This document shows, one piece after another, positions 28,736 to 30,094 of a stretch of DNA of 56,319 nucleotides. Positions within the stretch are counted from its first letter, which is position 1. Each line of letters starts with the position of its first letter. This DNA is from Gemmatimonadota bacterium (lineage in GTDB: Bacteria > Gemmatimonadota > Gemmatimonadetes > Gemmatimonadales > GWC2-71-9). The notes under the pieces are model-generated. The model saw only the letters and a program-made list of their open reading frames with translations, had not been told where the DNA came from and ran no database searches. Location of the stretch: contig JANYLJ010000007.1 in the NCBI GenBank assembly GCA_025357945.1, forward strand, positions 1-56,319, in the 5' to 3' direction. Position numbers and translations under genes: made by a program.

Positions 28736-28764
28736 TTGACGCTGCCGGGATTCTTGCGTATTAT
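28736..28764 (+). promoter_or_regulatory. Sigma-70-type promoter of the 6S RNA
   Basis: TTGACG (28736-28741) and TATTAT (28759-28764) are separated by 17 bases, a near-consensus housekeeping promoter. The expected start, 6-8 bases downstream at about 28771, coincides with the first base of the closing stem of the RNA described next. Confidence 0.85.
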
Positions 28765-28770
28765 AGCAGT

Positions 28771-28934
28771 GGCTGGACGGCGGCGGGGAATCCTACGTTC
28801 TTGAGCCGATAAGTCTGAGTATGGGTCCGCATTCTGTGTCCGACGTCATGCCCCACGGGGAAGACGGAAGACGTGGTGAGGGCGCCGAGCGTTTCTCTTG
28901 GGCTTCAAAACACTTTCCCCGTCGTCGCCCAGCT
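28771..28934 (+). ncRNA. ssrS: 6S RNA (candidate)
   Basis: A transcript of about 164 nt whose ends form a long closing stem: 28772-28790 pairs with 28915-28933 over 19 positions, with G-U wobbles and one mismatch. The 5' half contains GAGCCGATA (28803-28811), also found in E. coli 6S RNA. The 3' half has GGGCTTCAAAAC, comparable to the GCCTTAAAACT segment there. Size, closed-rod shape, strong promoter and start point all fit 6S RNA, which mimics an open promoter and sequesters RNA polymerase holoenzyme. There is no T-run after the stem, so the 3' end probably arises by processing. The assignment comes from eye comparison; a covariance-model hit would settle it. Confidence 0.72.
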
Positions 28935-28983
28935 TCCCACCGCCTCTCCTTCTCTCCACCTCACTTCTCCCGTACTATTGTTG

Positions 28984-29397
28984 ATGCCTCGCGCCACCGT
29001 GGTTCGCCGCGTGCATTTCAATGCCGCCCACCGCCTGCACAACCCCGCCCAGACGGCCGAGTGGAACCGGACGACGTTCGGCCCGTGCAACTTGCCCAAC
29101 TATCACGGCCACAACTATGAGGTGGAGCTCTGTGTTGAAGGCGAGGTCAGCGCCGACACGGGGTACGTGGTGGACGTCGGGACCCTGAAGGCGCTGTTCG
29201 ACGAACACGTCCACGCCCTTCTGGACCATCACAATCTCAACCTCGACGTGCCCTGGTTTGCCACGCGTCTGGCATCGACCGAGAACGTGGCACTCTTCAT
29301 CTGGGAACAGCTCGCCTCGCGGATTCCGTCCGGCCATCTCACCTGCGTTCGTCTCTGGGAAACGCCGCGGAACTACGTCGAGTACCGTGGTGGCTGA
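28984..29397 (+). CDS. 6-pyruvoyl-tetrahydropterin synthase family protein
   Basis: A 137-residue T-fold enzyme. The zinc ligands are His16 (FNAAHRL) plus His41 and His43 (YHGHNY). The catalytic Cys35 stands six residues before His41 (CNLPNYHGH), as in animal PTPS (C-x5-HGHNY) rather than bacterial QueD (C-x3-HGH). The family makes 6-pyruvoyl-tetrahydropterin or 6-carboxy-tetrahydropterin from dihydroneopterin triphosphate. The gene overlaps a short-chain dehydrogenase, which would fit a sepiapterin reductase-like next step. I chose ATG 28984; upstream in-frame codons lie in the 6S RNA region. Queuosine synthesis (QueD) remains possible. Confidence 0.85.
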   Translation: MPRATVVRRVHFNAAHRLHNPAQTAEWNRTTFGPCNLPNYHGHNYEVELCVEGEVSADTGYVVDVGTLKALFDEHVHALLDHHNLNLDVPWFATRLASTENVALFIWEQLASRIPSGHLTCVRLWETPRNYVEYRGG

Positions 29398-30094
29398 CGC
29401 GACGTCCACGCTCGCCGGCTGGAGCATCGTCATTACCGGGGCGTCGCGCGGGATTGGCGCCGCAACGGCCCTGCGGGTCGCTACCCTGGGCGCCACTGTA
29501 ATTCGGGTCGCGCGATCGGCGATGCCGCTGCTGACGGGTGCGATTGATCTGCGCGCCGATCTGGCCGACCCGCGCGAGCGCGACGCCGTGCTGCGACAGA
29601 TCACCGATCAGCACGGCACCCCGGATGCGGTCATCAGCAACGCGGGTGCGTTCCTCATCGCACCGCTGGCAGAGACGAGCGATGCGCTCGTGCGCGAGCA
29701 GCTGGCAATCAATCTCGAAGCGCCATTCGCGATCGCGCGTCACTTCCTGCCAGCGATGCGCAGTCGTGGACACGGCAACCACATCCTGGTAGGGAGCGTG
29801 GCCGACTCGCGGCCGTTTGCCGGCAACGCCGCCTACGCCGCCTCCAAGTACGGTGTTCGCGGACTGCACGAAGTGCTCTGCGAGGAGTTCCGCGGTACCG
29901 GCGTGCGCTGCACGCTGATCTCGCCTGGGCCAACGGACACGGCGGCGTGGGACCCGGTCGATCCGGATGCCCATGAGGGATTCACGCTGCGCGCCGACAT
30001 GCTGCGGCCGGGTGATGTTGCCGACGCGATCGTGTATGCGCTGACGGTCCCCCGCCACATGCAGATCGAATCCCTTCGAGTTGGGCCGGCATGA
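29387..30094 (+). CDS. Short-chain dehydrogenase, possible sepiapterin reductase-like
   Basis: A 235-residue SDR. The NADP(H)-type glycine motif TGASRGIG lies near residues 21-28, the NAG motif is in VISNAG, and the catalytic Ser-Tyr-Lys triad is in LVGSVADS and YAASKYG. The LISPGPTDTAAWDP segment is a normal SDR C-terminal loop. The start is GTG 29387 or the adjacent GTG 29390; both overlap the stop of the PTPS gene by about 10 bases, so the two proteins are probably made together. With PTPS this could yield tetrahydrobiopterin-type cofactors. That pathway role is inferred from the pairing only, since SDR substrates cannot be read from motifs. Confidence 0.82.
   Translation: MVADATSTLAGWSIVITGASRGIGAATALRVATLGATVIRVARSAMPLLTGAIDLRADLADPRERDAVLRQITDQHGTPDAVISNAGAFLIAPLAETSDALVREQLAINLEAPFAIARHFLPAMRSRGHGNHILVGSVADSRPFAGNAAYAASKYGVRGLHEVLCEEFRGTGVRCTLISPGPTDTAAWDPVDPDAHEGFTLRADMLRPGDVADAIVYALTVPRHMQIESLRVGPA

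Follow-up and report, generated by a model that had tools for sequence, protein, structure and literature searches.

The window (the whole 56,319-nt stretch of DNA that was analysed) contains a sigma-70-like promoter, a structured RNA of about 164 nt and, 3' of the RNA within positions 28984-30094, genes assigned by Pfam to the PTPS and SDR families. Table 1 lists the features of the locus. The PTPS gene matches Pfam PF01242 with an E-value of 7e-33 (obtained with an extended version of this reading frame). Its product carries a CNLPNYHGHNY stretch, which we take to resemble the animal PTPS enzyme, and does not reach the QueD cut-off; the pathway may thus be tetrahydrobiopterin-like. ARAGORN predicted neither a tRNA nor a tmRNA for the window, which rules out tmRNA as an explanation of the RNA.

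Table 1. Features of the RNA locus and its downstream neighbour (positions are those of the window)
Feature	Position	Strand	Basis
-35 element (TTGACG) of the probable 6S RNA promoter	28736..28741	+	promoter scan; family loci
-10 element (TATTAT), 17-nt spacer from -35	28759..28764	+	promoter scan; family loci
Probable 6S RNA, about 164 nt	28771..28934	+	RF00013 match 28769-28937, fold, covariation
Closing stem, 5' strand	28771..28790	+	pairs with 28915-28934; fold
Closing stem, 3' strand	28915..28934	+	fold; covariation
Predicted product-RNA template	28791..28810	+	published product-RNA hallmarks (PMC8414754)
P2 (downstream helix), 5' strand UUGAGCC	28801..28807	+	pairs with GGCUUCAA at 28901-28908, one U bulged
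P2 (downstream helix), 3' strand GGCUUCAA	28901..28908	+	family alignment; covariation
Central bubble, 5' strand	28808..28822	+	single-stranded stretch that separates helix 2 from helix 3 in the tested structure
Central bubble, 3' strand	28887..28900	+	structure tested for covariation
Proposed collapse helix, 5' strand AAGUCUGAG	28811..28819	+	complementary to CUUGGGCUU at 28897-28905
Apical arm	28823..28886	+	helices 3-6, 91-100% of cells paired
PTPS (6-pyruvoyl-tetrahydropterin synthase family protein), outside the RNA	28984..29397	+	Pfam PF01242

Promoter, fold and covariation in the family

At E<=1, a DNA search with a 216-nt query gave matches in 98 of the 102 genomes that belong to the window's family (many of these are short chance pieces). 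For the family alignment we used the window and 29 relatives, i.e. 30 loci, all fetched at E<=7.4e-13. TTGACG-17-TATTAT is the sole sigma-70-like site between 28400 and 29300 (one found vs 0.2 expected in shuffles). The first-pass annotation had described a near-consensus promoter at the right distance from the RNA, and the alignment bears this out: TTG, the 17-nt spacer and TAnnnT are present in 30/30 loci, and A at the fourth place of the -35 box in 29/30. The promoter was also found in 24 of 37 loci outside the family (0.3 expected). The RNA of the window has, as is looked for in a 6S RNA, a housekeeping-sigma promoter of its own. At five loci outside the window's order (L108, L112, L109, L111 and L113), some of them without a clear -35 box, TATATT lies at the modelled 5' end, and the RNA may start a few nucleotides later there.

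We inferred the ends of the RNA from its closing stem and from how far it lies from the promoter. The region 28769-28937 folds as a single rod (-74.1 kcal/mol, z-score -2.81, equalled by 1 of 200 shuffles) with a closing stem, a large central bubble and an apical arm, the architecture of a 6S RNA of about 160-200 nt. When a 6S-type structure was imposed on the family alignment, 26 of 45 pairs showed double changes vs 13.2 in shuffles (a value reached by 0 of 500), and 95.6% of the cells were paired vs 41.7-52.4% with slid partners. In the closing stem (helix 1), 12 of the 14 pairs counted have changes on both sides and 94.5% of cells are paired; in helix 2 (P2) the latter value is 96.3%, and GGGCUUC of its 3' strand is invariant in 30/30 family loci. 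The 164-nt rod with a long closing stem, as first proposed, is thus what the two stem strands delimit, with covariation far above both controls. A scan of the GTDB genome collection for the exact core pattern returned 14 stretches, all 14 in records under the names Gemmatimonadetes or Gemmatimonadales.

Homology to 6S RNA and distribution across the phylum

With an open threshold, the Rfam 6S model RF00013 is the one family that matches the 901 bases searched around the RNA; its match covers 28769-28937 on the forward strand over the full model (1-187) with 21.0 bits and E 0.06. The 3.0-Mb genome as a whole has no second RF00013 match at E<=10. The score lies below the gathering score of 46.4 bits, which is a curation threshold and not a biological feature. 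The covariance-model search that the first-pass annotation had named as its check therefore came out positive as to the full-length and only match in the genome, but not as to the cut-off, and the match on its own is suggestive and no proof of 6S identity. At gathering thresholds no Rfam family, riboswitches included, matches the window, and none matches the 17 phylum loci with matches to the R1 model described below.

According to the searches within the family, the window is its only member seen by RF00013. Using the sensitive setting, the RNA locus was matched in 0 of 29 family relatives, and the five weak matches in these 29 genomes (15.1 bits at most) all lie away from the locus; for 20 of the 29 loci searched with Rfam at the open threshold (E<=10), there was no 6S row, and the rows obtained belong to eukaryotic-type or chance families. 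The 6S identity of the family therefore depends on its anatomy and on transitive homology through R1 to the loci L003 and L004. Over 298 phylum genomes, scanned with stricter filters that leave even the match in the window unreported, RF00013 matches 32 genomes at E<=1 and three above the cut-off (62.5 bits for L002, probably on a foreign contig, 56.6 and 53.3 bits).

R1, a covariance model built from the window's family alone, matches 266 of the 298 phylum genomes at E<=0.1, mostly with one copy each. Of the 30 loci retrieved on the basis of RF00013 hits in the phylum, it recovers 29, at the same place and on the same strand. It scores 80.8 bits at L003 and 38.9 bits at L004, two loci whose RF00013 matches pass the Rfam cut-off and which thereby link the family by homology to sequences above that threshold. 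The case for 6S identity rests mainly on this agreement: in 29 genomes, two models built separately pick out the same ~170 nt. A phylum-wide model built from 46 sequences of many families (R2) matches 287 of the 298 genomes, again mostly with one copy each (one in the window's genome). The phylum-wide alignment was itself fitted to the structure; in it, double changes occur in 38 of 45 pairs vs 26.8 in shuffles. The remark in the first-pass annotation that 6S RNA is easily missed by annotation fits these numbers well (3/298 genomes over the cut-off for RF00013 vs 287/298 for the phylum-tuned model).

Among the RF00013 hits, L002 (contig C266 of genome G291) combines the highest score with a ZapA gene upstream, and this zapA-linked 6S is matched by neither R1 nor R2. 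Since there is an ordinary R1-type 6S at another place in this genome, the contig looks foreign, and it is probably contamination of that assembly. For two genomes with RF00013 matches no locus was fetched: in G191 the R1 match lies in another place, so its RF00013 match is probably due to chance, and in G081 the place of the R1 match is not listed.

A second R2 match was found in 8 of 9 genomes examined, 8 of these 9 having been chosen for having two; the one in G174 is a 45-nt fragment, and five of the eight genomes belong to one family (f6). The other seven genomes contain second, more divergent 6S-like copies (L134, L136, L137, L138 and L140 in f6; L135 and L139), which are possibly 6S paralogues, cf. 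6S-1 and 6S-2 of Bacillus.

Predicted product RNA and a proposed collapse helix

By analogy with the U44 start of E. coli 6S RNA, we assume that product-RNA synthesis would start opposite U28810, which gives AUCGGCUCAAGAACGUAGGA as the predicted product RNA of the window. The starts given in PMC8876501 are U44 in E. coli 6S and nucleotide 40 in B. subtilis 6S-1. An adenine just upstream of the start is described as a hallmark (PMC8414754), together with GG at positions 4/5 of the product RNA in E. coli, A. aeolicus and R. sphaeroides, and GG at 5/6 with AA at 9/10 in lactic acid bacteria. The window has a template in the 5' bubble with a purine start, GG at 4/5 and A at -1. Among the aligned sequences, a purine start is found in 30/30 (family) and 45/46 (phylum-wide), GG at 4/5 in 30/30 and 46/46, A at -1 in 28/30 and 42/46, and AA at 9/10 in 24/30 and 43/46. 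The predicted product RNAs begin with AUCGGCUC in the window and GUUGGCUC in relatives. The GAGCCGATA block, which the first-pass annotation had reported as shared with E. coli 6S RNA, is present at 28803-28811.

A central bubble collapse helix has been described for B. subtilis 6S-1 and Aquifex 6S RNA (PMC8876501). The two complementary elements of the window listed in Table 1 would form a duplex of -8.4 kcal/mol (shuffle fraction 0.026), and a collapse duplex at a shuffle fraction of 0.05 or less is found in 29 of 46 sequences, with a mean of -9.8 vs -5.4 kcal/mol when the 5' element is shuffled. When the product-RNA site is blocked, 35 of the 46 predicted folds contain at least four collapse-type pairs. 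In six of the 46 sequences (L119, L122, L121, L120, L004 and L005) the helix is no better than in shuffles (fractions 0.41-0.82). Within the family, the pairs of the collapse helix by itself that show double changes number 3 vs 2.7 expected (a count attained in 291 of 500 shuffles), and the cells with double changes number 14 vs 6.5 expected (reached by 1 of 500); by this shuffle control, the family alignment lends moderate support to the alternative helix.

Two partner sequences face GGGCUUC, one GGUCC-like (in the window's family and part of its order) and one GAAGCC-like (in other lineages). In the RNAalifold consensus, the 3' GGGC pairs with GUCC and not with GAGCC, which we read as the alternative (collapse) state, both pairings being counted. 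Judging from these comparisons, the collapse helix is a probable release switch with two sequence solutions.

Neighbouring genes, identity and comparison with known systems

Pterin genes are the preferred downstream setting of the Gemmatimonadota 6S: in 29 of 47 oriented loci the RNA is followed within 300 nt by a PTPS homologue on the same strand, mostly with FolE next. This arrangement would suit a cis-acting leader or riboswitch that senses pterin or folate and controls the operon of PTPS and FolE, as would the window itself, in which no intrinsic terminator-like site was found after the RNA on the same strand, including the stretch up to PTPS. Against such a leader, 21 of the 30 family loci, vs 2.6 expected, have a terminator-like hairpin 3' of the RNA, PTPS lies about 1.3 kb from the RNA in 4 of 47 loci and was not found in the examined stretch in 13 of 47, and at gathering thresholds the window matches no riboswitch family; the template of the product RNA and the strand that pairs with it are moreover among the most conserved parts of the RNA. 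(In one further locus of the 47, PTPS is listed after FolE.) The linkage is not constant and termination before the gene would be common, and the leader reading was set aside as improbable.

The 13 loci in which PTPS was not found include L003, L004, L005 and L009, where zapA is directly upstream and ymdB or rny downstream. The ZapA-SsrS gene order is known in beta- and gamma-proteobacteria, and the E. coli ssrS-ygfA transcript is a precedent for read-through or processing (both in PMC7641849). A terminator-like hairpin was found in one of seven aligned same-genus relatives of the window (L040), and in this genus read-through into PTPS, or processing, is likely by analogy. In another locus (L033), Uma2 was observed upstream.

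Less probable still is a 6S-like RNA that, like Ms1 of Actinobacteria, would bind the core polymerase in the absence of sigma. The structures of Ms1 and 6S RNA are related (PMC9130861), and the fold alone cannot separate the two; the product-RNA template motif kept in nearly all sequences, the match to RF00013 and to no other Rfam family, and the zapA-6S gene order kept in some lineages all argue for 6S. As for a chance resemblance or a conserved DNA element without transcription, the Rfam score taken alone is weak (21.0 bits), but covariation disfavours chance, and with the fixed-spacer promoter, the terminator-like hairpins and the phylum-wide recovery it leaves this reading hardly any credit.

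6S RNA is a bacterial small RNA that lowers the activity of the main RNA polymerase by mimicking an open promoter, and acts as a global brake on transcription. We conclude with high confidence that the locus is the 6S RNA (ssrS) gene of a Gemmatimonadales bacterium, as the first-pass annotation had suggested; the RF00013 match, the covariation in the family, the recovery by R1 and R2 and the product-RNA hallmarks all support this. Transcription, polymerase binding, product-RNA synthesis and release of the enzyme are inferred as follows. The housekeeping sigma promoter would give rise to the ~164-nt rod, whose open centre would mimic a melted promoter. By analogy with known 6S RNAs, the RNA would bind the holoenzyme of RNA polymerase and primary sigma factor and, at nutrient shortage, reduce the output of ordinary promoters. 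When nucleotides return, the RNA would serve the polymerase as template, and from a start opposite U28810 a short product RNA (AUCGGCUCAAG...) would be made that would unwind the helix of UUGAGCC and GGCUUCAA. The freed GGGCUU strand could then pair with the 5'-bubble element AAGUCUGAG, and this central bubble collapse helix would help to release the enzyme.

A more far-reaching reading, possible although we rather doubt it, is that the Gemmatimonadota 6S RNAs form a distinct class of two-state switches, in which a nearly invariant 3' GGCUUCA would have to choose between the template UUGAGCC, paired with a bulge, and another element of the 5' bubble, which would have evolved in two unrelated forms (GGUCC-like and GAAGCC-like). 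In the window's genus, the terminator would have been largely lost and the 6S RNA would also be the leader of the pterin operon, so that pterin synthesis would be linked to the sequestration of polymerase.

Our literature search, outside which the survey by Wehner et al. (2014) lay, found nothing on 6S RNA in Gemmatimonadetes. By computation, 6S is near-universal in the phylum sample, where the Rfam threshold sees about 1% of the genomes (3/298, one of them probably foreign). This fills a gap in the map of 6S occurrence and provides usable models for annotation, as well as close to 290 divergent sequences (30 aligned for the family and 46 phylum-wide) for testing the release mechanism, the collapse helix in particular.

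The Gemmatimonadota RNA is a known kind of regulator with a lineage-specific look. With the E. coli type of 6S (SsrS, RF00013) it shares the rod with closing stem, central bubble and apical arm, the full-length model match, the product-RNA GG at 4/5 and, in part of the phylum, zapA upstream; it differs in that the RF00013 cut-off is passed in only 3 of 298 phylum genomes. The E. coli type gene lies between zapA and ygfA, whereas the Gemmatimonadota gene lies mostly before pterin genes in the loci examined, and where gamma-proteobacterial 6S has a hairpin, the Gemmatimonadota RNA would have a collapse-type alternative helix instead or besides. Complementary collapse-helix elements are shared with B. 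subtilis 6S-1 and A. aeolicus 6S, and the product RNA predicted in most relatives (GUUGGCUCAA) resembles that of B. subtilis 6S-1; however, the product-RNA GG is at 5/6 in Firmicutes and at 4/5 here, and having two sequence solutions for the helix within one phylum sets Gemmatimonadota apart from the collapse-helix type. Ms1 of Actinobacteria has the same 6S-like rod (PMC9130861) but binds core polymerase without sigma, and the conserved product-RNA template of the Gemmatimonadota RNA favours 6S.
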